A DNA stretch of 64,000 nucleotides from Variovorax paradoxus (lineage in GTDB: Bacteria > Pseudomonadota > Gammaproteobacteria > Burkholderiales > Burkholderiaceae_C): positions 124,001-188,000 of the forward strand of contig CP063166.1 in the NCBI GenBank assembly GCA_016806145.1. The letters are read 5' to 3'. This document shows, piece by piece, positions 22,456-34,704 of the stretch (the stretch's first letter is position 1; each line of letters opens with the position of its first letter). Under the pieces are notes generated by a model. The model saw only the letters and a program-made list of their open reading frames with translations. It was not told the origin of the DNA and ran no database searches. The translations under genes were made by a program, and so were the position numbers.

Positions 22456-23346
22456 ATGCGCCACCTCAACCTCGACCAGCTGCGCACCCTGATCGCGATC
22501 GCCGACCTCGGCAGCTTCTCGGCCGCGGCGCAGGCGCTGCACCTCGCGCAGCCCACGGTCAGCCTGCATGTCTCCGAACTCGAGTCGCGGCTCGATGCCA
22601 AGCTGGTGGTGCGCGGCGCGCGCGGCATCACGCCCACGGCGGCCGGCGCGGCGCTGGTGGAGCGCGGGCGCAAGCTGCTGCGCGACACCGACGATGCGCT
22701 CGACGCGGTCAAGCGACAGGCCGAGGGCCGCAGCGGCCGCGTGCGGCTGGGCACGTCGACCGGCGTGGTGGTCGACCTGCTGCCGCAGGTGCTCGAGGCG
22801 CTGGGCGCGCGGGACGCGGGCATCGACGTCGAGGTGGCGATCCTCGGCTCGGGCGAGGCGCTGGCGCGGCTGGCCGCGGGCACGCTCGACATCGGCCTGG
22901 TGGCGCTGCCGCAGCCGCCGCTGCGCGACCTGGTGTTCACGCCCTGGCGCACGCAGCCGATGATGGCCTTCGTGCCGCAGCGCACGAAGGCGCCCAGGCG
23001 CGTCACGCCGGCCTGGCTGGCCGAGCAGCCGTTGATCTTCAACGACGCGACCACCCACATGTACCGGCTCACGATGGAGTGGTTCGCGGCCGCGGGCTTC
23101 GCGCCGCGCGCGCGCATCGAGCTCAACTACGACGCGGCCATCCGCAGCCTGGTGGCGGCCGGCTATGGCGCCGCGCTGCTGCCGCTGCAGCCGACGACCG
23201 ACGCGGCGCTCGGCGAGCGCCTGCAGATCCTGCCGATCGTGCCGAAGCTCACGCGCCGCCTGTGCATCGCGCACCGGCCGCGCGCGCTGCTCGACGGCGC
23301 CACGCTGCGGGTGCTCGAGGTGCTGGCGGGGTTCCGCCAGGCCTGA
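22456..23346 (+). CDS. LysR-family regulator
   Basis: 296 residues: winged helix-turn-helix at 1-60 (GSFSAAAQALHLAQPTVSLHVSELE) and a LysR substrate domain (GRVRLGTSTGVVVDLLPQVLEAL through ELNYDAAIRSLVAAGYGAALLP). Divergent from the DUF1127 gene with a 109-base gap; convergent with amiR, 6 bases apart. Target unknown. Confidence 0.9.
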   Translation: MRHLNLDQLRTLIAIADLGSFSAAAQALHLAQPTVSLHVSELESRLDAKLVVRGARGITPTAAGAALVERGRKLLRDTDDALDAVKRQAEGRSGRVRLGTSTGVVVDLLPQVLEALGARDAGIDVEVAILGSGEALARLAAGTLDIGLVALPQPPLRDLVFTPWRTQPMMAFVPQRTKAPRRVTPAWLAEQPLIFNDATTHMYRLTMEWFAAAGFAPRARIELNYDAAIRSLVAAGYGAALLPLQPTTDAALGERLQILPIVPKLTRRLCIAHRPRALLDGATLRVLEVLAGFRQA

Positions 23347-23352
23347 ACCGTC

Positions 23353-23949
23353 TCAGGACGCGTCGGGCTTGCGCGCGCCGAGCGAGAGGATCTCGTTGGC
23401 GTTGACGATGGCGGCCGCGATCTCTTCCATGGTGGTACGTTTGCTCATCGCCTGCTCGCGGATCAGGTCGTAGGCCTGGCCCTCCGACACGCCATGCGTC
23501 TTCATGAGAATCGCCTTGGCCTCCGCGAGTTGGCGCACGCCCAGCAGCTTGGCCTCGGTCTTGCGCAGGCGCCGCGCGAGCGAGCGGTTCTGCTTGTGCG
23601 CCTCGCGCGCCACCACCAGCGCCGACAACAATCCGAATGAGCGCACCGGCGAGGGCAGCACGGCCTTGGCGCCGATCTCGAGCACGGCCTCGACGATGGT
23701 CGGGTTCTCGTAGGTCACGACGGCGATGATGGCCGGCGCGTCCTCGCTCTTGGTCCACTCGAAGCGCAGGTTGATGAAGTCGGGCTGCACCGCCATGAAA
23801 GCCACGTCGATGCCCTCGGGCAGCGCCTGCACCGGCGGCCAGAAGGCCTGTACCTGGCAGCCGATGCGCTGCAGTTGCTGGGTAAGCTGGCGGCCGTCGC
23901 TGTCGTCGGGGTGGATGACTGCGATCTTCAGCAGGCGCAGTTCTTTCAA
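23353..23949 (-). CDS. amiR: AmiR-like ANTAR transcription antiterminator
   Basis: About 198 residues (AmiR of Pseudomonas aeruginosa has 196). A TTG at 23949 (frame LKELRLLKIAVIHPDDSDG) gives the closest family length; the exact start is uncertain. Order: a degenerate receiver-like N-terminal domain (LLKIAVIHPDDSDGRQLTQQLQ, no phosphate-accepting Asp triad), a coiled helix, and a C-terminal ANTAR RNA-binding domain at about 135-195 (KLLGVRQLAEAKAILMKTHG, then EGQAYDLIREQAMSKRTTMEE). ANTAR proteins bind paired hairpins in leader RNA and prevent termination. With the AmiC-like sensor directly upstream in the operon it probably forms the amide-responsive switch for the urtA leader at 33975-34054. 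Confidence 0.88.
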   Translation of the reverse strand: MKELRLLKIAVIHPDDSDGRQLTQQLQRIGCQVQAFWPPVQALPEGIDVAFMAVQPDFINLRFEWTKSEDAPAIIAVVTYENPTIVEAVLEIGAKAVLPSPVRSFGLLSALVVAREAHKQNRSLARRLRKTEAKLLGVRQLAEAKAILMKTHGVSEGQAYDLIREQAMSKRTTMEEIAAAIVNANEILSLGARKPDAS

Positions 23950-24051
23950 CTGCGGTGGCGTCACTCGCAGGGTGTGTCTCTTGGGGGGGCTTTCCACCTT
24001 CAGGCCTCTTGTTTTTGTTGGTTCTGGTTTTGAGGCTGTTGTTCGGGGCGC

Positions 24052-24147
24052 GTGCACAGGACAGCGGGTACTTCCCTCCGCGAATGTCCCCCGCCCTTCG
24101 GGCTCCTCCTTAATTTCGCTGCGGGAAGCACCCACTGCCCTGTGCAC
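24052..24147. repeat. 96-bp hairpin element, copy A of family R2
   Basis: Terminal inverted repeats of 25 bases at 24052-24076 and 24123-24147 with 3 mismatches; core carries CGAATGTCCCCCG and CTCCTTAATTTCGCT. Lies in the gap between amiC and amiR. Copy B (24190-24285) is an inverted relative. Confidence 0.88.
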
Positions 24148-24189
24148 GAGGGCGCAGTCGTTGTGCAGCCGGTTCCACGGCCGCGTCCA

Positions 24190-24285
24190 GGCTCACGTCG
24201 ATGGGGTACTCCCCGCAGCGAAATAAAGGAGGAGGCCGCAGGCCGGGGGACATTCGCGGAGGGGAGTACCCCGTCGGCGTGAGCC
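24190..24285. repeat. 96-bp hairpin element, copy B of family R2
   Basis: Terminal inverted repeats of 25 bases at 24190-24214 and 24261-24285 (2 mismatches). The inner 12 bases (GGGGTACTCCCC / GGGGAGTACCCC) are perfect, and the core reads like the reverse complement of copy A. The outer 13 bases differ from those of copy A but stay self-complementary. Confidence 0.88.
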
Positions 24286-24315
24286 CCCCCACAACGGTAG
24301 AAAGCACGTTCCACC

Positions 24316-25470
24316 CTAAACCTCCAGCGTATCGAGCCGCGCAGTCCAATCCCCGAGCGAATGCGTCACCAGATAAGGATCGGGATACACAGCACGCGTA
24401 GCCTGCCGAACGATGGTGAACTGCCCCTGTGCATCCACGCGCCCGATGCGCGGATAGAGACAGGTGTGGTGGTTCGTGGGATCGATCTTCACCCGCCCCT
24501 GCGGCGCATCGAACTCGGCCCCCAGGATGTGCGGCAGGATCTCCGCGATCCCGTCGCTGCCCGCCTGCGCGAAGGCATTGGCGTAGATGTGCATCTGGAA
24601 GTAGGCCGCTTCCCAGCACAGGTTGGGTACGCAGCCGTCGCCGAAGCGGGCGCGCAGTTGCGCCAGGCAGCGCTGGTTGGCCGGCGAGTCGATCGACTGG
24701 AAGTAGGGCGCCGCCGTGAAGTGCCCCGTCGCCACCCCGCGCCCCATCTGCGAGATCTCGGCCTCCGAGGTCGTGAGGCTCGCGATCGGCATGCGCTTCG
24801 GGTCGAAGCCCGCCTCGGCATAGGCGCGGTACAGGCTCGCGGTGGAGTCGCCCACCACCGTCGAGAAGATGAAGTCGGGCTGCTTGTCGCGGATGTCGGC
24901 CATGATGGCCCGGTAGTCCTTCTCGGTCGCGTCGAGCGCCGCGTAATGCTCGCCGAGCTTTTCGCTGCCGGGGCGCTGCATCACCAACTCGCCCATGATC
25001 CGGTTCGACTCGTAGGGGTAGATGTAGTCGGAGCCGATCAGGTAGACCCGCGCGCCGAAGTTCGTCGTCATGAACTCGGCCAGTTGCACGCTGTTCTGGT
25101 TGGGCGCCGCGCCCGTGTAGATCACGTTGCCCGAGTACTCGAAGCCTTCGTAGAGCGTCGGGTAGAACAGCAGCTTGTTCCACTTCTCGATCACCGGGAT
25201 CACCGCCTTGCGGCTGCTCGACATGTAGCAGCCGAAGATCACGTTGACCCGGTCCTGCACGATCAGCTTCTCGGCCAGTTGCGCATAGCGCGCCGGGTTC
25301 GACTGCGGGTCGTGGCGCACGGCCACCAGCTCGCGGCCGTCGATGCCGCCGGCCGCGTTGATCTCCTCGATGCCGAGCAGCGCGCCCTGCAGCTGCGACA
25401 GGCCGATGGTCGAGGTGACGCCGGTTTCCGAATAGAGGATGCCGACGCGGATGGGATCCTTGTCAGCCAT
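24316..25470 (-). CDS. amiC: AmiC-like cytoplasmic amide sensor (periplasmic-binding fold)
   Basis: 384 residues and no signal peptide, unlike the exported UrtA at 32599. AmiC of Pseudomonas aeruginosa has 385. Residues aligned to its amide pocket are present: Y82 and S84 in GCYMSSSRKAV, Y103 and T105 in LLFYPTLYEGFEYSGN, and the tyrosines of IGSDYIYPYESN, followed by FSTVVGDSTASLYRA and IASLTTSEAEISQMG. AmiC binds short amides such as acetamide and holds AmiR inactive until inducer arrives. It lies between the VWA gene and amiR in the same direction, supporting the same logic here. Full-length and well conserved. Confidence 0.92.
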   Translation of the reverse strand: MADKDPIRVGILYSETGVTSTIGLSQLQGALLGIEEINAAGGIDGRELVAVRHDPQSNPARYAQLAEKLIVQDRVNVIFGCYMSSSRKAVIPVIEKWNKLLFYPTLYEGFEYSGNVIYTGAAPNQNSVQLAEFMTTNFGARVYLIGSDYIYPYESNRIMGELVMQRPGSEKLGEHYAALDATEKDYRAIMADIRDKQPDFIFSTVVGDSTASLYRAYAEAGFDPKRMPIASLTTSEAEISQMGRGVATGHFTAAPYFQSIDSPANQRCLAQLRARFGDGCVPNLCWEAAYFQMHIYANAFAQAGSDGIAEILPHILGAEFDAPQGRVKIDPTNHHTCLYPRIGRVDAQGQFTIVRQATRAVYPDPYLVTHSLGDWTARLDTLEV

Positions 25471-25566
25471 GGGCGGTCGTCCGTGAGGGGTGAGGGGCCG
25501 TCATGTCTTTTCTGTCTCGTGTGGGATTCGTTCGGGGCTCCACCCTATCGCAGTTCGATGCTTTCG

Positions 25567-27219
25567 TCAGTGGGCCGCGGCCAGCCGCGCGCTCATGCGC
25601 GCGAGCCGCGCGGGCAGGCTGCGCGCATCGTCGGCGATGCAATAGTTGCGCCAGCCGAAGATGCGCCGCACATAGGAATCGGCCGCGACATCGACCGCGA
25701 TGCAGGCGGTGCGCACGCCCGCGCCGCGTGCTTCGGCCACCGCTTCGCGCGCATCCTCGACGAGGTACTTCGGATCGTGCACGTCGATGTCGGCCGGCGC
25801 GCCGTCGGTCACCAGCAGGATCGCGCGCTGGCCCGCGGGCTCGTCCGCGAGCAGCGCCGCCGCATGCCGCAGTGCCGCGCCCATGCGCGTCGAGTAGCGG
25901 CCGCGCACCGCGCCGATCGTCGCGCGCGCCGGCGGCGAGAGCGGCTGGCCGAACTCGAGCAGCCGGTAGTAGTAGACCTCGGCGCGCGTGTTCGACGAGA
26001 AGCCGTGCACCGCGAGCCGGTCCGCGCCGCGCAGCCGCGCGGCGGCGAGCATCAGCGCGGCCTGCTTCTCGATCTCGAGCAGCGACAGGCCGTGCGGGCC
26101 CGCATCGTTGGCCGAGGCCGACAGGTCGAGCAGCACCAGCACGCTCGACGGCCGCGGCGCCTTGCCGGGCCGCATGAACAAGCGCGCATCGGGACGCAGC
26201 CGCTGGCGCCGGTCGACCAGCACCTCGATCGCCGCATTGAGGTCGATGTCGTCGCCCTCCCATTGCCGCCGCAGCCGGTGCCGGCGGTCGAGGTGGAGCG
26301 CGCGCGGCAGCGCCAGCGGCGGCAGGCTCTCGGCGCGCAGGGCCGCTTGCGCCTGGCTTGGCAGCAGGCCCTGCCACCCGGGAAGCTTCTCGATCACCGT
26401 GCACCAGTCGGGCCGCAGGCGCTCGAGGCGGCGGTCCCATTCGGGATAGGTGTAGCGGCCCAGCTCCATGTCACCGAACTCGGGCGGTGCTTCGGCGGCC
26501 GCATCGCCCGCGTCGGAGGGCGGCGGCATGCGCGCGCCCGACTGCTGCAGCGCGATCGCCTCGTCGGGCGGTGGCGGCGTCGCATCGGCGCCGAAGTCCC
26601 AGAGCCAGCTGTTGTCGTCGCGCCAAGGCGCGGGCACCGCGTAGCCCTGGGGCTCGAAACGCACGCGCATCTGGCCCAGGTCGTTGGCCAGGATCGAGGC
26701 GATCGCGCGGAAGGCCTCGTAGTCCGCCAGGCCCGCGTGCGCCGCGGTGTCCTCAAACAGCCGGCGCGCCTTCTCGACCCAGTGGCTGCCGTCGTGCAGC
26801 TCGGGCCGCAGCAGCAGCCGGTCCATGCGCAGCAGCAGCGCCTCGAAACGCAGGTCGAGCGGATCGGGCGCGGGCGGCAGCGCGTCGGCGAACCAGCCAT
26901 GCAGGCCGGGGAAGTCGCGCACCAGCAGCCGCTCGACGCGCGCGTCCTCGATCGCCGACACCAGCGCGATGCCCATCGGCCGCAGCGTGTTCGCGCGGCG
27001 CGCGGGCGTCGAATGCCGCAGGTGCGCCACCGCATGCGCGACCATCGCGCGGCGCAGCGCCGGCGGGCTGTCCTCGGGAACCAGCAGCCGCCCGGCCGCG
27101 AGCACCGCGCGCGTGCCCGGCTTCGCGCCGGCCACCAGCGGCTGCACCTCGAGCGCCATGCCGGCCAGCCCGCGCGCGAGCAGCCCCAGCGCGGCGAAGC
27201 TGCCCGTGTCGCGCATCAT
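25567..27219 (-). CDS. VWA-domain protein, NorD/CbbO-like
   Basis: 550 residues with a C-terminal von Willebrand factor A domain from about 360: MIDAS motif LVLLDLSASAND, then AALRHAAALLADEPAGQRA and LLVTDGAPADIDVHDP. The N-terminal two thirds is a helical region (HAVAHLRHSTPARRANTL, VSAIEDARVERLLVRDFPGLHGWF) found in NorD/CbbO proteins. Starts by an ATGA overlap at 27216-27219 with the NorQ/CbbQ ATPase gene; the two families act together as MoxR-type chaperones that insert metals or remodel enzymes. Sits in the amidase operon, which is unusual since the amidase itself needs no metal. Confidence 0.85.
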   Translation of the reverse strand: MMRDTGSFAALGLLARGLAGMALEVQPLVAGAKPGTRAVLAAGRLLVPEDSPPALRRAMVAHAVAHLRHSTPARRANTLRPMGIALVSAIEDARVERLLVRDFPGLHGWFADALPPAPDPLDLRFEALLLRMDRLLLRPELHDGSHWVEKARRLFEDTAAHAGLADYEAFRAIASILANDLGQMRVRFEPQGYAVPAPWRDDNSWLWDFGADATPPPPDEAIALQQSGARMPPPSDAGDAAAEAPPEFGDMELGRYTYPEWDRRLERLRPDWCTVIEKLPGWQGLLPSQAQAALRAESLPPLALPRALHLDRRHRLRRQWEGDDIDLNAAIEVLVDRRQRLRPDARLFMRPGKAPRPSSVLVLLDLSASANDAGPHGLSLLEIEKQAALMLAAARLRGADRLAVHGFSSNTRAEVYYYRLLEFGQPLSPPARATIGAVRGRYSTRMGAALRHAAALLADEPAGQRAILLVTDGAPADIDVHDPKYLVEDAREAVAEARGAGVRTACIAVDVAADSYVRRIFGWRNYCIADDARSLPARLARMSARLAAAH

Positions 27220-28034
27220 CCGAACTGGGCCTCGACGAAGCCCTGCAGCGCGCTCGCCATGTCGGGGTCGTCGGTCAGCGCGCGCGTCATCGTCATCTCG
27301 CAGCTCTCGCGCGGCGTCACGCCGTCGCGGATCAGCACGCCCGCGTAGATCAGCATGCGCGTCGACACGCCCTCGTCGAGCCCGCGGTGCTTGAGTTCGC
27401 GCGAACAGTGCGCGACGGCCACCAGCTTCGCGGCCAGCGCGGTGTCGATGCCGGCCTCGTGCGCCACGATCTCGGCCTCGAGCGCGCCATCGGGATAGTC
27501 GAACTCCAGCGCCGCGAAGCGCTGGCGCGTCGAGGGCTTGAGGTCCTTGGCGCTGCTCTGGTAGCCGGGGTTGTACGACACCACGAGCTGGAAGTCGGGA
27601 TGCGCGCGCACCAGCTCGCCCTTCTTGTCGAGCGGCAGGATGCGGCGCGCGTCGGTCAGCGGATGGATCACCACCGTCGTGTCCTGCCGCGCCTCCACCA
27701 CCTCGTCGAGGTAGCAGATGCCGCCGTGGCGCACCGCCAGCGTCAGCGGCCCGTCGTGCCAGGCCGTGCCGTCGGCGTCGAGCAGGTAGCGCCCGACCAG
27801 GTCGGAGGCCGTCATGTCCTCGTTGCAGGCCAGCGTCACCAGCGGCCGGCCCAGCGACCACGCCATGTGCTCGACGAAGCGCGTCTTGCCGCAGCCGGTC
27901 GGCCCCTTGAGGATCAGCGGCATGCGGTGGCGCCAGGCCTGCCGGTACAGCGCCACCTCGTTGCCGGCGGGCCGGTAGAAGGGCTCGGACTCGATGCGCC
28001 AGGCCGCGAGCGGATCGTGCACGGGTGCGTTCAT
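27216..28034 (-). CDS. NorQ/CbbQ/NirQ-type AAA+ ATPase
   Basis: 272 residues, MoxR-class AAA+ ATPase of the NorQ/CbbQ family. Walker A LKGPTGCGKTRF at about residue 40-50, then LVTLACNEDMTASDLVGRYL (conserved NEDMTA.D..G), Walker B GGICYLDEVVEARQDTT, and a sensor-2 arginine region near the C-terminus (VSTRMLIYAGVLIRDG). Partner of the VWA protein encoded directly downstream with a 4-base overlap. In Rubisco and NO-reductase systems these pairs activate an enzyme; the target here may be the amidase or another protein of the operon. Confidence 0.9.
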   Translation of the reverse strand: MNAPVHDPLAAWRIESEPFYRPAGNEVALYRQAWRHRMPLILKGPTGCGKTRFVEHMAWSLGRPLVTLACNEDMTASDLVGRYLLDADGTAWHDGPLTLAVRHGGICYLDEVVEARQDTTVVIHPLTDARRILPLDKKGELVRAHPDFQLVVSYNPGYQSSAKDLKPSTRQRFAALEFDYPDGALEAEIVAHEAGIDTALAAKLVAVAHCSRELKHRGLDEGVSTRMLIYAGVLIRDGVTPRESCEMTMTRALTDDPDMASALQGFVEAQFG

Positions 28035-28053
28035 GGCGTGTCGTGGCCCTCGC

Positions 28054-29091
28054 TCAACGGTGCTTGGCCGGCTCGTTCGGAATCCCCTCGATCGGGCATT
28101 CGGGCGTGCCCACGGTGCTGCGCGTGAACGACTCCACCCTCTCGCGTGTGCCCTCGGGGTCGTTGATCCACTGCGTGTAGAAGTTGTAGGGGCAGGCCGC
28201 CACGCCCTTGTCGCCGTCGCCCGAGTTGATGGTGCCGGTGTAGCCGCGGTGCACCAGCTTGAACAGGTGGTTCTGCGACTGGCCGTTGCGCCGCGCGTCG
28301 CGGATCAGGCCCATCGAGAGTTCGGCGTAGTTGATGCCCATCTCCTCCTCGCCGCATTCGCCGAGCGTGCGGCCGTCGAAGCCGATCAGCGCCGAGTGGC
28401 CGAAGTACGAGTACACGCCGTCGAAGCCGGCCGCGTTGGCCACCGCCACATAGGTGTTGTTCATGAAGGCCATCGCCTTCGACACCAGGATCTGCTGCTC
28501 CTTGGCCGGGTACATGTAGCCCTGGCAGCGGATGATGAGCTCGGCACCACGCATCGCGCAGTCGCGCCAGATCTCGGGGTAGTTGCCGTCGTCGCAGATG
28601 ATCAAGCTCATCTTCATGCCCTTCGGGCCTTCGCTCACGTACGTGCAGTCGCCCGGGTACCAGCCCTCGATCGGCACCCACGGCATGATCTTCCTGTACT
28701 TCTGGACGATCTCGCCCTGGTTGTTCATGAGGATCAGCGTGTTGTAGGGCGCCTTGTTCGGATGCTCCTCGTGGCGCTCGCCGGTCAGCGAGAACACGCC
28801 CCAGACGTTGGCGCGCCGGCAGGCGTCGGCGAAGATCGCGGTCTCCTCGCCGGGCACCGAGGCCGCGGTGTCGTACATCTCCTTGGCGTCGTACATGATC
28901 CCGTGCGTGGAGTACTCGGGAAAGATCACCAGGTCCATGCCCGGCAGGCCTTTCTTCATGCCGACCAGCATCTCGCCGATCTTGCGCGCGTTGTCGAGCA
29001 CCTCGGCCTTGGTGTGAAGGCGGGGCATCTTGTAGTTGACGACCGCGACGCCGACGCAATCGTTGCTGCTCGAAATATCACCATGTCTCAT
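28054..29091 (-). CDS. amiE: aliphatic amidase
   Basis: 345 residues (346 in Pseudomonas aeruginosa), nitrilase-superfamily acylamide amidohydrolase that converts acetamide, propionamide and other short amides to acid and ammonia in the cytoplasm. The catalytic triad is exactly placed: E59 in [13 protein letters not shown]134 in [16 protein letters not shown] and C166 in [15 protein letters not shown]-terminus [20 protein letters not shown] matches the family. Upstream lies urtE with 39 bases between. Conserved length and triad give a confident call; with the importer genes it forms an amide-use operon. Confidence 0.96.
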
Positions 29092-29130
29092 GACGCTGCT
29101 CCTGAAGGGGTGGTTGGGAAGGGAAGGGGT

Positions 29131-29820
29131 TCAGACAGTGAGGAAAGAGCGGACCTTGTCCTGGTCGAGCGTGGCGCGCGCCTCGTCGTGCACCAGGCGG
29201 CCGCGGTCGATCACGAGGAAGCGGTCGGCCAGCGCGAGCGCGAAGCTCAGCACCTGCTCCGAGACCACGATCGCGAAGCCGCGCTCGGCGCGCAGCACGT
29301 TCAGCGTCTGCGCGATCTCCTTGATGATCGAAGGCTGGATGCCCTCGGTGGGCTCGTCGAGGATCAGCACCCTGGGCTCGGAGATCAGCGCGCGCGCGAT
29401 CGCCAGCATCTGCTGCTGGCCGCCCGAGAGGTTGCCGGCCTTGCGCTGCTTCATGTCCTGCAGCACCGGGAAGAAGCGGTAGAGGTAGTCGGGCACCGTG
29501 CGGTGGCCCGAGCGCGCGGCGCCCGAGAGGATGTTCTGCTCCACCGTGAGGTGCGGGAACACCATGCGGCCCTGCGGCACGAAGGCCAGCCCGTGCGCCA
29601 CGCGCTGGTGGCTCGGCAGCCGGGTGAGCTCGGTGCCGTTCAGGCGGATGCTGCCGCCGCGCGCGGGCAAGAGGCCGATCAGCGACTTCAGCAGCGTGGT
29701 CTTGCCCATGCCGTTGCGGCCCATGACGGCGACCGCCTCGTCGGGCGCGACGCGCAGCGAGACATCGTGGATCACGTGCGACTCGCCGTAGGCGACATCG
29801 AGTGCGGAGACTTCGAGCAT
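29131..29820 (-). CDS. urtE: urea/amide ABC transporter, ATP-binding subunit UrtE
   Basis: 229 residues, ABC ATPase. Walker A GRNGMGKTTLLKSL (residues 35-45), Q-loop GLAFVPQGRMVFPHL, signature LSGGQQQMLAIARAL, Walker B RVLILDEPTEGIQPS, D-loop and VVSEQVLSFALALADRF. The LILDEPTEGIQPSIIKEI stretch is typical of UrtE/LivF. ATG follows AAGGAGT. Completes a permease complex with UrtB, UrtC and UrtD. Confidence 0.93.
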   Translation of the reverse strand: MLEVSALDVAYGESHVIHDVSLRVAPDEAVAVMGRNGMGKTTLLKSLIGLLPARGGSIRLNGTELTRLPSHQRVAHGLAFVPQGRMVFPHLTVEQNILSGAARSGHRTVPDYLYRFFPVLQDMKQRKAGNLSGGQQQMLAIARALISEPRVLILDEPTEGIQPSIIKEIAQTLNVLRAERGFAIVVSEQVLSFALALADRFLVIDRGRLVHDEARATLDQDKVRSFLTV

Positions 29821-29833
29821 GCGTTGGACTCCT

Positions 29834-30634
29834 TCAATGGCCGAGGTAGACGTCGATCACGCGCGGGTCGGCCTGCACCTCGGCGGCCGTGCCCTCGCTG
29901 AGCAGCCGGCCCTGGTGCAGCACGGTCACGCGGTGCGCGATGCGCTTGACGAAATCCATGTCGTGCTCGATCACCACCACCGACTTGCCCACCGAGATGC
30001 GGCGCAGCAGGTCGCCGGTCTGCTCGCGCTCGCGCGGGCTCATGCCGGCCACGGGCTCGTCGAGCAGCAGCAGCTCGGGCTCCTGCATCAGCAGCATCCC
30101 GATCTCGAGCCACTGCTTCTGGCCGTGGCTCAGCTGGCCCGCGCGGCGGTCGAGGCGCTCGACCAGGAACACCTCGGTGGCCATCGCCTCGATGCGCTCG
30201 CGCAGCGCGCGGGTGCGGCGAAAGCTCAGCGACTGCCACAGGCCGTGCATGCGCGGCAGCGAAATCTCGAAGTTCTCGAGCACCGTGAGGTCCTCGTAGA
30301 CCGAGGGCGTCTGGAACTTGCGGCCCACGCCGGCGCGCACGATCTCGTGCTCGTTCATGCGGCCCAGGTCCTGGCCGTTGAACAGCACCCGGCCCGCGCT
30401 GGGCCGGGTCTTGCCGCAGACCATGTCGAGCAGCGTGGTCTTGCCCGCGCCGTTCGGGCCGATGATCACGCGCAGCTCGTTGCGCTCGACCGAGAGGCTC
30501 AGGCCGTCGACCGCCTTGAAGCCGTCGAAGGAGACCGTGAGGTCCTCGACGCGCAGGATCTGCTCGTTCGAGGGCGGCACGGCCGAGGCCGCCTGCGGCA
30601 GGCCGCCGTTGGGCATCGCCAGCGTCGCGTTCAT
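29834..30634 (-). CDS. urtD: urea/amide ABC transporter, ATP-binding subunit UrtD
   Basis: 266 residues, ABC ATPase of the LivG/UrtD type. Walker A IIGPNGAGKTTLLDMV, GVGRKFQTPSVYEDLTVLEN (Q-loop), signature LSHGQKQWLEIGMLL (the LSHGQ variant typical of UrtD), Walker B ELLLLDEPVAGMSPRERE and the H-loop VVIEHDMDFVK. An N-terminal Pro/Ala extension of about 25 residues precedes the domain. Overlaps urtC by ATGA at 30631-30634. Confidence 0.93.
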   Translation of the reverse strand: MNATLAMPNGGLPQAASAVPPSNEQILRVEDLTVSFDGFKAVDGLSLSVERNELRVIIGPNGAGKTTLLDMVCGKTRPSAGRVLFNGQDLGRMNEHEIVRAGVGRKFQTPSVYEDLTVLENFEISLPRMHGLWQSLSFRRTRALRERIEAMATEVFLVERLDRRAGQLSHGQKQWLEIGMLLMQEPELLLLDEPVAGMSPREREQTGDLLRRISVGKSVVVIEHDMDFVKRIAHRVTVLHQGRLLSEGTAAEVQADPRVIDVYLGH

Positions 30635-31686
30635 GGCGCGGCCTCCGCGCCGCGGCGGCGCAGCAGCTTCTCGCCCAGGCCCGCCAGGCCGTTCGGCATC
30701 GCCCACACCACGAGGATGAAGACCGCGCCGAGGAAGTAGAGCCAGCCCTCGGGGAAGGTCTCCGACAGGTAGGACTTGAGGAAGCCGATCAGCAGCGCGC
30801 CGATCACCGCGCCGGGAATCGAGAGCCGCCCGCCCACCGCCGCGTAGATCACCATCTCGACCGAGGCCACCACGCCGATCACGCCGGGCGCGATCAGCCC
30901 CACCTGCAGGCTGTAGAAGGCGCCGCCGATGGCCGACAGCAGGGCCGCCACCGCGAACACGAAGGCCTTCATGTGCGCCGTGTTGTAGCCGCTGAAGCGC
31001 ACGCGGTCCTCGCGGTCGCGGATGGCGATCAGGATCTTGCCGAAGCGGCTGCGCACGATCAGCAGCGCGCCCATCATCGCGAGCGCGACGGCCGCCACCT
31101 CGATGAAGTACATGGTCCGCTTGGCCGCGTCGCCCGCGATGTCCCACCCCAGCAGCGTGCGGAAGTCGGTGATGCCGTTGGCGCCGCCGGTGTCGCCCTG
31201 CTGGCCGATCACCACCACGGTGAGCGTGAGCGCCAGCGACAGCGTGACGATCGCGAAGTACACGCCGCTCACGCGCCGCTTGAAGATCGCGTACGAGAAC
31301 ACGTAGGCGAGCAGGGCGGGGATCGCGAGGATGCCGACCAGGGTCCAGCCCAGCGAGTGGAAGGGGATCCACCACGAGGGCAACTGCTCGACGCTGCTCC
31401 AGACCATGAAGTCCGGCAGCTCGGGCGCCGAGGCCTCGAGCTTGAGGAACATCGCCATCATGTAGCCGCCGAGGCCGAAGAACAGGCCCTGGCCCAGGCT
31501 CAGCACGCCGCCGTAGCCCCAGGTCAGCACCACGCCGATCGCGACGAAGGCGAAGGCCAGGTACTTGCTCACGAGGTTGAGGCGGAACGGATCGAGCGTG
31601 GCCGGCAGCACCACGGCCAGCAGCAGCAGCACGGCCGCCAGCCCGACGAGGTCGCCGCGGCGTTGGGGAGAAAGCTTCATGCTCAT
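30631..31686 (-). CDS. urtC: urea/amide ABC transporter permease UrtC
   Basis: 351 residues with about nine membrane helices, LivM/UrtC type. Seen: AFAFVAIGVVLTWGYGGVLSLGQGLFFGLGGY (conserved GYGGVLSLGQ region), DYVMVWSSVEQLPSWWIPF-like loop, and the C-terminal GLAGLGEKLLRRRG. Start at ATG 31686 with GGAG nine bases ahead, four bases after urtB. Confidence 0.92.
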   Translation of the reverse strand: MSMKLSPQRRGDLVGLAAVLLLLAVVLPATLDPFRLNLVSKYLAFAFVAIGVVLTWGYGGVLSLGQGLFFGLGGYMMAMFLKLEASAPELPDFMVWSSVEQLPSWWIPFHSLGWTLVGILAIPALLAYVFSYAIFKRRVSGVYFAIVTLSLALTLTVVVIGQQGDTGGANGITDFRTLLGWDIAGDAAKRTMYFIEVAAVALAMMGALLIVRSRFGKILIAIRDREDRVRFSGYNTAHMKAFVFAVAALLSAIGGAFYSLQVGLIAPGVIGVVASVEMVIYAAVGGRLSIPGAVIGALLIGFLKSYLSETFPEGWLYFLGAVFILVVWAMPNGLAGLGEKLLRRRGAEAAP

Positions 31687-31690
31687 TCGC

Positions 31691-32593
31691 TCAGCTCCTC
31701 GACCGGGTCGCGAACAGCCCGTTGGGCCGCACGTAGAGCACCGCGATCACCAGCAGCAGGATCGTGGCCTTGGCCATCGAGCCGCTCATCAGGTACTCGA
31801 GCCAGGTCTGCGACTGCGCGATGGCGAAGCCCGAGAGCGCGGTGCCGATCAGGCTCTGCACGCCGCCGAACACCACCACGATGAAGGAGTCGACGATGTA
31901 GAGCTGGCCGGTGCCGGGGTTGGTCGAGCCGATCATCGTGAACACCGCGCCCGCGATGCCCGCCAGGCCCGAGCCCAGCGCGAAGGTCAGCGCATCGACG
32001 CGCTGCGTGTCGATGCCGACCGCGCCCGCGATCGCGCGGTTCTGCGTCACCGCGCGCACCTTCAGCCCCCAGGAGGTGCGGTAGAGCAGCAGGTAGACGC
32101 CGATGGCGACGATGGCCGTGAGCCCGATGATGAACAGGCGCGTGAGCGGCAGCTGGATGCCCGGCGTCGGTTCCCACGCCCCGGCGAGCCAGGAGGCCAG
32201 CGGCACGCTGACTTCCTGCGCGCCGAACAGCGAGCGGTAGGCCTGCTGCAGCATGAGGCTCAGGCCCCAGGTCGCGAGCAGGGTGTCGAGCGGCCGGTCG
32301 TAGAAGAAGCGGATGAAGCCGCGCTCCAGCACATAGCCGAACGCGAAGGTCACGGCGAACGCGAACGGGATCGCGGCGAACAGGTAGAGGTCCATGAAGC
32401 CCGGCGCGTAGTGCTCGAAGAAGCGCGACGCCAGGTAGGTCATGTAGGCACCGAGCGCCATCAGCTCGCCGTGCGCCATGTTGATGACGCCCATCAGGCC
32501 GAACACGATGGCCAGCCCGATCGCCATCAGAAGCAGGATGGTGAACAGGCTCACGCCGTTGAACACCTGCATCACCGCGATGTCGAAGTTCAT
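31691..32593 (-). CDS. urtB: urea/amide ABC transporter permease UrtB
   Basis: 300 residues and about eight helices, LivH/UrtB type. Conserved motifs: LAIVFGLMGVINMAHGELMALGAY, DRPLDTLLATWGLSLMLQQAYR, GLKVRAVTQNRAIAGAVGID and GSTNPGTGQLYIVDSF. Only five bases separate it from urtA. Confidence 0.93.
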   Translation of the reverse strand: MNFDIAVMQVFNGVSLFTILLLMAIGLAIVFGLMGVINMAHGELMALGAYMTYLASRFFEHYAPGFMDLYLFAAIPFAFAVTFAFGYVLERGFIRFFYDRPLDTLLATWGLSLMLQQAYRSLFGAQEVSVPLASWLAGAWEPTPGIQLPLTRLFIIGLTAIVAIGVYLLLYRTSWGLKVRAVTQNRAIAGAVGIDTQRVDALTFALGSGLAGIAGAVFTMIGSTNPGTGQLYIVDSFIVVVFGGVQSLIGTALSGFAIAQSQTWLEYLMSGSMAKATILLLVIAVLYVRPNGLFATRSRS

Positions 32594-32598
32594 CGCGC

Positions 32599-33792
32599 TC
32601 AGACCTTCGGGAACGGGTTGGGCTCGACCAGCTGCGGCGATTCCCAGACGATGTCGAACTGCCCGTCGGGCCGCGCGCGGCCCACGCGCACCTTCTTCCA
32701 CACGTGGTGGTTGGTGGCGTGCACGCGCACCGTGCCCTCGGGCGCCTCGATCTCCACGCCCGCGGCGGCGGCCGTGACCTTGTCGACCTCGAAGGACTTG
32801 GCCTTCTCCACCGCCAGCTTCCAGAGGTAGACGCTGTTGTAGGCCACCTCCATCGGGTCGCCGATCACGCGGTCCTGCCCGTACTTGGCCTTGAAGGCCT
32901 TCACGAACTTCTCGTTGGCCGGCGACTTGATGCTCTGGAAGTAGCCCATGCAGGCGTAGTAGCCGGCGGCGTTGTCCTTGCCGATGCCTTCGATCTCGTT
33001 CTCCGACACCACGGTCGACAGCAGCACCTGCTTCGTGCCGTCGAGCCCGGCCGCGCGCAGCTGCTTGTAGAAGGCCACGTTCGAGCCGCCGACCACCGTG
33101 CTGTAGATGCAGTCGGGCTTGGCGGCCTTGATCTTGTTGATGATCGAGGAGAACTCGGTGTGGCCCAGCGGCGCGTATTCCTCGCCGAGCACCTTGCCGC
33201 CGGCCTTGCCGATCGCGGGCTTGGCGATCTTGTTGCAGGTGCGCGGATAGATGTAGTCCGAGCCCACGAGGAAGAAGTTCTTGCCCTTCTCGCGCGCCAT
33301 CCATTCGACCGCCGCGATCACCGACTGCGTGGCTTCCTGCGAGGGATAGAACACGCGCTTGTCCTGCTCCTGGCCCTCGTAGTAGGTGGGATAGAACAGC
33401 AGGCCCTTGGCCTGGGCGAGCACCGGCAGCAGCGCCTTGCGCGAGGCCGAGGTGTAGCAGCCGATGATGGCCGCCACCTTGTCGCGCTCGAGCAGCTTGC
33501 GCGCCTTCTCGGCGAACACCGGGTTCTCGCTCGCGCCGTCTTCCACCACGGCCTCGATCTTCTTGCCGAGCACGCCGCCGGCGGCGTTGATCTCCTCGAT
33601 CGCGAGCTTCTCGGCGTCGACCAGCGACGCCTCGGCGATCGCGATCGTGCCCGAGAGCGAATGCAGCAGCCCGAGCTTCACCGTGCCGCCGTCCTGCGCG
33701 AAGGCCAGCGGCGCCACGCCGCCCGCGGCGCCCAGCACGATCATCGAGCCGCCGGTCTTCACGATCTGGCGGCGGTTGAAAGCGTTCGTCAT
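32599..33792 (-). CDS. urtA: urea/amide ABC transporter substrate-binding protein UrtA
   Basis: 397 residues, class I periplasmic binding protein. Signal peptide about 1-34 starts NRRQIVKTGGSMIVLGAAGG (twin-arginine-like). The mature part shows LGLLHSLSGTIAIAEASLVDAE, GCYTSASRKALLPVLAQ, FYPTYYEGQEQDKRV, VGSDYIYPRTCNKIAKP and HHVWKKVRVGRARPDGQF, as in UrtA/FmdD-type urea and short-chain-amide receptors. Start ATG 33792 follows AAAGGAAT. The upstream leader carries the ANTAR-type attenuator. Confidence 0.94.
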   Translation of the reverse strand: MTNAFNRRQIVKTGGSMIVLGAAGGVAPLAFAQDGGTVKLGLLHSLSGTIAIAEASLVDAEKLAIEEINAAGGVLGKKIEAVVEDGASENPVFAEKARKLLERDKVAAIIGCYTSASRKALLPVLAQAKGLLFYPTYYEGQEQDKRVFYPSQEATQSVIAAVEWMAREKGKNFFLVGSDYIYPRTCNKIAKPAIGKAGGKVLGEEYAPLGHTEFSSIINKIKAAKPDCIYSTVVGGSNVAFYKQLRAAGLDGTKQVLLSTVVSENEIEGIGKDNAAGYYACMGYFQSIKSPANEKFVKAFKAKYGQDRVIGDPMEVAYNSVYLWKLAVEKAKSFEVDKVTAAAAGVEIEAPEGTVRVHATNHHVWKKVRVGRARPDGQFDIVWESPQLVEPNPFPKV

Positions 33793-33974
33793 GTCAAATT
33801 CCTTTGTGGTTGTGCGAGTCGTCAGGAAGATCCGACCTTCGGAACCGCGCTTTGGGTGTCTCCTCCCGCCACGCGGCCCTGCAAACGGGCGCTTCGTCGC
33901 CAGTGCCTTTGCTTCGGGCAAAGCTCCGCCAGCGGATGCATGCATCCGTTTCGACGAAAGCCCTGTTGCGACCG

Positions 33975-34020
33975 AAAAAACAAAAAGGCCCGAACCGGTG
34001 TTCAAACCGATTCGGGCCTT
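33975..34020 (-). terminator. intrinsic terminator in the urtA leader
   Basis: On the minus strand, a 15-bp stem (AAGGCCCGAATCGGT pairing with ACCGGTTCGGGCCTT, one G-U pair) with loop TTGAAC spans 34020-33985 and is followed by a T-rich run to 33975. It lies 183 bases before the urtA ATG. Either it attenuates the urt-ami operon or it ends the gene at 34204; the overlapping hairpin P2 argues for the first. Confidence 0.88.
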
Positions 34021-34054
34021 GTTGCCCGACACCTCGCTGGCAGCATTGGCAGCG
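34012..34054 (-). promoter_or_regulatory. ANTAR-type paired hairpins (antiterminator) in the urtA leader
   Basis: Minus strand, P1 at 34054-34035: CGCTGCCAATGCTGCCAGCG folds with a 5-bp stem, a C-C mismatch, a C-G pair and hexaloop AATGCT (A at 1, G at 4, as in the ANTAR consensus). After 5 bases comes P2 at 34029-34012: TCGGGCAACAAGGCCCGA, a perfect 6-bp stem with hexaloop AACAAG (A at 1, but A in place of G at 4). P2's 3' arm is the terminator's 5' arm, so the two exclude each other. The cognate protein is probably AmiR encoded at 23353. Confidence 0.7.
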
Positions 34055-34203
34055 GGCGTCGCATGACTGGTAACGATTGCTCGTTGCGGCGGATTCTTCT
34101 CAACCCGCGCCGGTCTGCAAATACGTTGTTGTGCGGATTGGCGGGCCGGCGGGGACTGTGCTATTTGCGCGCACAGGCGCGCCTGGGGCCGCTTTGCGCG
34201 GGG

Positions 34204-34704
34204 TCAGCGCGGCCGCGCGAAGTCCGCGTCGATCCAGGCCGAGGCGCTGGTGGCGCTGAGCTTGAACGAGGCCGGCACGTTCACGCGCGCGAGCTCGCTG
34301 TCGTCGGCGTCGTCGAAGGCGCTCAGCGTGGCCGAGGGGTTGTCCTCGTCGGGCACGATGGCCAGCGTGACGCGGATGCGCCGGTCGCCGGCGCTCACCG
34401 TCACGCTGCGGTTGAGCGTGGCGTGCAGCTGCTGCTCGTGGCGGCGGATCACCTCGGCCGCGGTCTTCACCAGCGTGGAGAAGGCGGGGCCGTCGAGCGG
34501 CTTCGGGTTCTTCTTGTCGCGGCCCATGGTCCAGGGGCCGACCAGCGCGGGCTCGGGGTCGCCATGGCGCGTCATCTCGACGGCCCAGCCGTCGTCTTCC
34601 TCGTTCTTGATGATGCGGGCGGTCCAGCGCTCGTCGCGCCAGAGGCGGTCCTGTTGCAGCGGGAGGATGTCGTCGGATTCGGTGGTCGGGGTCGTGTCGG
34701 TCAT
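34204..34704 (-). CDS. conserved protein of unknown function
   Basis: 166 residues, acidic N-terminus (MTDTTPTTESDDI) then a compact alpha/beta region with RWTARIIKNEEDDGWAVEMTR and GPWTMGRDKKNPKPLDGPAF, TLVKTAAEVIRRHEQQLHA and two C-terminal strands. I do not recognise the family. Its start overlaps the stop of the upstream LysR gene by ATGA (34701-34704), so both come from one transcript. Confidence 0.7.
   Translation of the reverse strand: MTDTTPTTESDDILPLQQDRLWRDERWTARIIKNEEDDGWAVEMTRHGDPEPALVGPWTMGRDKKNPKPLDGPAFSTLVKTAAEVIRRHEQQLHATLNRSVTVSAGDRRIRVTLAIVPDEDNPSATLSAFDDADDSELARVNVPASFKLSATSASAWIDADFARPR

Follow-up and report, generated by a model that had tools for sequence, protein, structure and literature searches.

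The closest described counterparts of the leader RNA reported here precede amiE of Pseudomonas aeruginosa, eutP of Enterococcus faecalis and nasF of Klebsiella oxytoca. The ANTAR RNA motif has been defined by A at position 1 and G at position 4 (A1 and G4) of both loops (PMC3369931; what is taken from this and the other cited papers refers to the passages concerned). In eutP all four of these loop letters mattered, the G56A exchange, by which G4 of loop 2 becomes A, lowered induction as well as EutV binding, and altering the two closing pairs of hairpin P1 disrupted induction (PMC3369931). In a crystal structure of EutV with RNA the only base-specific contact is made by a base, taken to be G4, that is flipped out and stacks on Tyr164 (PMC8934654), and NasR preferred a closing C:G pair, A1 and G4 in SELEX (PMC7496416). 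Ramesh and colleagues predicted ANTAR RNAs before urea transporters, reported matches in Burkholderia and counted at least 13 attenuators in a single organism (Ramesh et al. 2012; PMC3369931). Since their search model fixed A1 and G4 in both loops, leaders with A4 in loop 2 may have been under-scored. Gene clusters containing amiE, a CbbQ/NorQ gene, a NorD-like gene, amiC and amiR were described in 2026 (PMC13209695). Searches of the open-licence PMC literature showed no report describing this leader or A4 in the second loop; the leader alignment and model made here offer a direct handle on A4 leaders.

The leader RNA and its operon

The window, that is the whole stretch of 64,000 nucleotides that was analysed, carries on its minus strand a probable attenuator leader 183-262 nt upstream of the urtA start (33792), followed by an operon in the order urtABCDE, aliphatic amidase, CbbQ/NorQ-type ATPase, VWA protein, AmiC and AmiR (Table 1). 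HP1 reads CGCTG-C-C-[AATGCT]-G-C-CAGCG, and its stem reaches 34060-34028 past a bulged A. The stems of HP1 and HP2 are separated by 5 nt (34034-34030; the range in eut leaders is 5-12), and the terminator ends in TTTGTTTTTT as far as 33975. As the 3' arm of HP2 is part of the 5' arm of the terminator, the two structures are mutually exclusive. The terminator ranks strongest among 8 terminator-like sites in 23000-34400, where shuffled sequences contained 4.1 on average, and the 93-nt leader has a predicted fold of -53.4 kcal/mol (z = -6.8) that was equalled by 0 of 200 shuffles. The hairpin and terminator coordinates given in the earlier note are correct, its statement that only one of HP2 and the terminator can form follows from them, and loop 1 obeys the A1/G4 rule as it had said. 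Its ANTAR-type reading gains from conservation, covariation and gene families; against it stands loop 2 (AACAAG), which breaks G4, a point the note did not mention.

Table 1. Features of the leader and of the operon downstream, in the order of transcription (window coordinates)
Feature	Coordinates	Strand	Remarks
HP0	34072..34085	-	upstream stem AACG(A)-GCAA-(T)CGTT
HP1 (P1)	34035..34054	-	hexaloop AATGCT (A1, G4), C-G closing pair, C.C mismatch beneath; covariation and conservation
HP2 (P2), putative antiterminator	34012..34029	-	TCGGGC-[AACAAG]-GCCCGA; loop with A1, but A at position 4
Intrinsic terminator	33975..34020	-	15 bp stem 34020-34006 / 33999-33985; U-tract 33984-33975
urtA-type substrate-binding protein, first gene of the operon	32599..33792	-	TIGR03407, 525.7 bits (cut-off 492.75)
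urtB-type permease	31691..32593	-	TIGR03409, 389.1 bits (cut-off 250.3)
urtC-type permease	30631..31686	-	TIGR03408, above cut-off
urtD-type ATPase	29834..30634	-	TIGR03411, above cut-off
urtE-type ATPase	29131..29820	-	TIGR03410, above cut-off
Aliphatic amidase (AmiE type)	28054..29091	-	NF009802, 719.5 bits (cut-off 427)
CbbQ/NirQ/NorQ-type AAA ATPase	27216..28034	-	family match
VWA-domain protein	25567..27219	-	family match
AmiC-type amide sensor	24316..25470	-	best PDB match 1PEA (AmiC), E 3.7e-98
AmiR-type ANTAR antiterminator	23353..23964	-	AmiR_N (PF21332) and ANTAR (PF03861) above cut-off; best PDB match 1QO0_D

UrtA to UrtE pass the NCBIfam cut-offs for a urea importer; such family names state what the members are called, and the substrates are predictions. 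The VWA-domain protein we take to be NorD/CbbO-like. AmiR likely starts at the GTG at 23964, as judged by its match to AmiR of known structure, which gives 203 amino acids. The matches to 1PEA and 1QO0_D and the domain assignments bear out that an AmiC sensor and an AmiR-like ANTAR protein end the operon, and the gene families that the leader stands before a Urt-type importer and an amidase, both of which the earlier note had proposed. A Urt-type importer adjoining an amidase would fit amide uptake, by analogy with the fmd operon of Methylophilus methylotrophus (PMC10781810). AmiC and amiR are separated by about 350 nt, in which long inverted repeats (24066-24285) with 68-nt arms, 90% complementary, are located; in some relatives, e.g. 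L014-L017, the two genes almost abut.

How might this leader work? We consider it, with a probability of about 0.86, to be an amide-induced, AmiC-gated and AmiR-dependent antiterminator as in Pseudomonas amiE. Without inducer AmiC would hold AmiR, and without AmiR the nascent RNA would shift from HP2 into the terminator, so that transcription would end at about 33975. Binding of a small amide by AmiC would release AmiR, which would then bind the loop of HP1 and subsequently that of HP2, keeping HP2 closed. The terminator would thereby be deprived of its 5' arm, and the polymerase would continue into urtABCDE, the genes for amidase, ATPase and VWA protein, amiC and amiR, AmiR thus being encoded at the end of the operon that it would read. 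Support for this reading comes from the sequence, predicted structure, covariation, gene families and co-occurrence, from which we infer RNA binding, the inducer and the off and on states in cells.

Conservation, covariation and co-occurrence with AmiR

A search with UrtA yielded 80 loci, mainly from Burkholderiales (the best 80 of 163). Leaders were judged where at least 150 nt lie upstream, i.e. in 77 of the 80 relatives (L035, L059 and L060 being too short) and in the window. The module of HP1, HP2 and terminator is present in 71 of these 78 urtA leaders, 69 of them distinct, and with it both hairpins, on whose conservation in homologous leaders the earlier note had made its reading depend. 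A script found the module in 64 leaders (the register of L070 was reset by hand) and the remaining 7 were found by eye; since the script rewards pairing, A1, the closing C-G pair and a spacing of 18-20, the figures for those features are somewhat inflated, and no reward was given for the letter at position 4 of the HP2 loop. Seven urtA leaders are without the module: in L073, L074 and L076 modules lie further upstream, ahead of the genes preceding urtA, the contig of L075 ends too soon, L067 is doubtful, and none is found in L069 and L084. Both loops comprise six bases in 66 of the 69 distinct leaders, and loop-to-loop spacing is 18 nt in 52 of the 64 script-found ones, a spacing within the range the script favoured. 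The genes downstream recur as well, with an amidase of at least 70% identity in 66 of the 80 loci, within the sequence that each locus holds, and, at 45% identity or more, AmiC in 62 and AmiR in 61, many of the others being cut by contig ends.

Covariation in the 69 leaders is strong for HP1 and for the terminator. In HP1, 86.0% of the cells are paired, 10 of 11 pairs changed on both sides, and the covariation value of 0.554 compares with 0.183 in shuffled alignments and 0.139 for the best slide, albeit each of the lower five pairs is unpaired in 15-24 leaders. The corresponding figures for the terminator are 91.3%, 12 of 15 pairs, and 0.451 versus 0.184 and 0.171. HP2 covaries weakly (0.116 versus 0.080 shuffled, with 1 of 500 shuffles as high, and 0.091 for the best slide); 74.6% of its cells are paired and 4 of 6 pairs changed on both sides, the inner three pairs being nearly invariant and the outer three unpaired in 34, 37 and 26 leaders. 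A closing C-G pair, which the script rewarded, is found in both hairpins of all 69. Folding predictions show HP2 closed in 68 of 69 transcripts that stop at its 3' end, whereas in the complete leaders the shared arm goes to the terminator every time (69 of 69). HP1 and the terminator are thus firmly supported as RNA structures by the aligned sequences, and the case for HP2 rests mainly on its near-invariant GGC/GCC core, the closing pair and the spacing. The covariation analysis that the earlier note had called for consequently bears out HP1 and the terminator strongly and HP2 weakly.

Upstream of the module, a hairpin corresponding to HP0 (stem of at least 4 pairs, linker of 26-32 nt) occurs in 29 of 68 leaders versus a mean of 2.0 and a maximum of 6 in 200 single-letter shuffles, a count that overstates the support since the leaders are related. 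The letters of its stem vary between clades. HP0 was considered as a third ANTAR hexaloop and rejected, because in most instances A1 lies opposite U6 and the loop is better taken as a tetraloop closed by A-U, in several cases of the GNRA type. In the window HP0 perhaps marks the 5' end of the transcript, where it may form a hairpin, or it may be a dyad in the DNA. In many of the leaders L013-L049 a DNA motif of the type GGGTAAnnnC recurs, as read by eye, upstream of HP0 and may perhaps be an activator site.

The leader also co-occurs with AmiR. Within the genus of the window, leaders scoring above 80 bits with the leader model R1 were found in 26 of 101 genomes, and AmiR matches above 270 bits in the same 26, both cut-offs having been placed in score gaps after these had been seen; as leader and amiR belong to one operon, linkage explains much of this agreement. 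At the limits of the searches the leader was found in 29 (E 1e-8) and AmiR in 38 (E 1e-20) of the 101 genomes. The three additional leaders score 44-51 bits (G538, G606, G586), the first being without an AmiR match and the other two having weak ones of about 106 bits, and 12 genomes contain only weaker AmiR relatives below 150 bits. Six of the 26 matches contain stops (G575, G594, G600, G601, G608, G610); the AmiR query began 61 residues upstream of the likely start. In the window's own genome R1 gives 92.6 bits at the urtA leader and at most 33 bits elsewhere. These lower hits are not claimed as a regulon, because below about 35 bits R1 also reports apparent ordinary terminators (in 105 of 150 family genomes at E 0.01).

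Loop letters and alternative explanations

Position 1 is A in 66 of 66 leaders in loop 1 and in 65 of 66 in loop 2, a letter that the script rewarded. Position 4 is G in 46, A in 19 and T in 1 of the 66 in loop 1, and A in 56, G in 8 and T in 2 in loop 2, so that loop 2 of the window shares its departure from the A1/G4 rule with most relatives. The second pair from the loop of HP1 is C.C in 52, C.U in 7 and U.C in 3 leaders and paired in 7 of 69. A4 in loop 2 and the HP1 mismatch make the leader a variant of the ANTAR motif and, in view of the eutP exchanges, both tell against the AmiR-dependent reading. On a UrtA tree built by a quick method, with 22 of 66 inner branches open and without shuffle control, the fewest changes are 6 for HP1 position 4, 5 for HP2 position 4 and 2 for the second pair of HP1. 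Among more distant AmiR-linked leaders, read by eye and with HP1 unclear in L115 and L123-L125, loop 2 has G4 in L122, L117, L115 and the Shinella/Rhizobium plasmids L123-L125 and A4 in L087, L121, L119 and L086.

Does AmiR differ where the RNA differs? At the places of EutV Tyr164, Arg168, Met172 and Arg175 the AmiR of the window has Tyr, Arg, Met and Arg, if the EutV numbering is shifted by two to fit the alignment, as we infer. The place of Tyr164 is occupied by Tyr in most rows, by Phe in L058-L060 and L066 and by His in L010, L012 and P. aeruginosa AmiR; L006-L009, L034, L044, L063 and L078, whose frames came out truncated or wrong, were left out of this comparison. An AmiR residue as the cause of A4 was rejected, since by eye the contact positions are alike in A4 and G4 leaders. 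Since Arg168, Met172 and Arg175 are retained in the relatives with an alignable ANTAR domain, whose residue at the Tyr164 place is Tyr, Phe or His, a recognition code that accepts a purine at position 4 is plausible. In addition, the position-4 base of loop 2 faces the U-tract within the terminator (A-U in 59, G-U in 8 of 69 leaders), and A4 would therefore strengthen the off state. We tentatively propose, at slightly less than even odds, that a mostly Burkholderiales lineage moved to a variant code in which loop 2 is read with A4 and HP1 via a C.C-mismatched neck, AmiR reading a purine where EutV needs guanine and recognition strength being traded for tighter shut-off. As a natural loop 2 here carries the very letter that weakened the eutP switch, the ANTAR-RNA recognition code becomes testable by single-base swaps.

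Alternatively, AmiR might bind HP1 alone and block termination in some other way, leaving HP2 unbound and A4 of loop 2 free to drift. EutV does bind single hexaloops in vitro (PMC8934654), and the weak covariation of HP2 and the pairing of its position-4 base with the U-tract would agree with such a mode. However, the inner 5' arm of HP2, which lies outside the terminator, is nearly invariant and its closing pair never lost, loop spacing is almost fixed, and 64 of 66 leaders have a purine at position 4 of loop 2, although pairing within the terminator might by itself account for this. We consider binding to HP1 alone unlikely.

Clearly less probable still is an attenuator run by a factor other than AmiR, be it a peptide encoded in the leader, a riboswitch for a small molecule or a different one among the five ANTAR proteins of the genome, three of which have AmiR_N domains. 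The departure of loop 2 from the ANTAR motif could be read this way, and by eye a 20-codon frame starts at 34064 in the window; yet the ATG of this frame is missing in the nearest relatives L006-L012, for which reason the leader peptide was rejected, the leader reached no Rfam family's gathering score, and candidate leaders at the locus of the AmiR paralogue L115 have G4 in HP2. The two-hairpin architecture, the spacing and the match in the same 26 genomes point to the operon's own AmiR.

That the hairpins and terminator merely end the co-directional upstream gene (stop 34204), with urtA having its own promoter downstream, is the least credible reading, for the gene's position on the same strand 184 nt before the terminator, the lack of any sigma-70 promoter passing the scan of 23000-34400, which tells against the AmiR-dependent reading as well, and a co-directional longest upstream frame in 46 of the 63 loci that offer 2.2 kb or more of upstream sequence (a mechanical count, unsure in GC-rich DNA) are outweighed by the finding of this gene in 7 of 80 loci (63 with at least 2.2 kb upstream) versus the module in 71 of 78 leaders, by amiC being the upstream gene on the opposite strand in L064, L078-L081, L083 and L085, by TTGACA and TAnTCT-like hexamers seen by eye just upstream of HP1 in L050, L052-L054, L057 and L077, and by the consideration that a plain terminator would need neither HP1 nor a near-invariant 5' arm of HP2; the opposite-strand loci and the two counts led to its rejection.

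Other loci and comparison with known systems

Beyond the aligned leaders, R1 also matches upstream of AmiC/AmiR operons that have other amidases (L087, L121, L122, L086), namely an amidase-signature enzyme in L087, acetamidase/formamidase in L086 and L122, and in L121 an amiE cluster that lacks the importer and adjoins a divergent permease operon, itself preceded by a leader. This divergent operon, on plasmid pBN4, encodes permease, hydrolase, porin and amidase, and its ANTAR-like leader (L121:6639-6728, minus strand) scores 40.2 bits. Further modules lie ahead of a second copy of urtA in L016 and of cytosine/purine-type permeases in L045 and L074. Two modules in series are found in L051, L065, L068 and L074 (47-67 bits) and three in L073 and L076, of which only the first of each exceeds 35 bits. 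A generic module scan gave 4 modules in 13 loci at a cut-off of 17 and is only a guide, since reversed sequences gave 2 above 17 (20.2 and 20.1). One cassette of AmiC, AmiR and leader is thus joined to different amide hydrolases, at times with at least two attenuators in series. The window's genome (G000) contains further AmiR-type genes at G000:C2:2459514-2460191 (L115) and G000:C2:1437822-1438412 (L116); at L115 AmiR has an AmiC-like and a Urt-type binding protein as neighbours, and the two candidate leaders there show G4 in loop 2.

The locus resembles P. aeruginosa amiE in its AmiC sensor, AmiR antiterminator, aliphatic amidase and dual hairpin before a terminator. Both operons also include the regulator genes and a gene for an ATPase, amiB in P. 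aeruginosa. The Pseudomonas ami locus contains amiS, whereas no match to the AmiS/UreI family was found anywhere in the window's genome. The leader in the window moreover precedes a Urt-type ABC importer, which is placed first, and has A4 in loop 2 and the HP1 mismatch, A1 and G4 being stated for both amiE loops in the text of PMC3369931. E. faecalis eutP likewise has two hexaloop hairpins, the second overlapping the terminator, and its loop spacing of 18 nt, derived from A29/G32 and A53/G56 (PMC3369931), equals that of the window type; EutV differs in being a phosphorylated response regulator, and both eutP loops have G4, with G56A damaging function. K. oxytoca nasF shares the dual hairpin and terminator, the closing C:G pair and A1, but NasR senses nitrate itself and prefers G4 in SELEX. 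The fmdCABDEF operon of M. methylotrophus has a formamidase and FmdB, and AmiC and AmiR are not named in the passages concerned (PMC10781810). A Pseudomonas veronii plasmid carries amiE-CbbQ/NorQ-NorD-like-amiC-amiR, i.e. the accessory genes and regulators of the window, and Klebsiella-type plasmids carry amidase-amiC-amiR-ABC importer with the same regulators; the passages on these clusters describe no leader RNA (PMC13209695). The setting that the earlier note had called different from Pseudomonas is, given such clusters and the ANTAR RNAs predicted before urea transporters (PMC3369931), not wholly new. On a Raoultella plasmid (L086) the leader was found here together with an apparent amidase-amiC-amiR-ABC importer operon.
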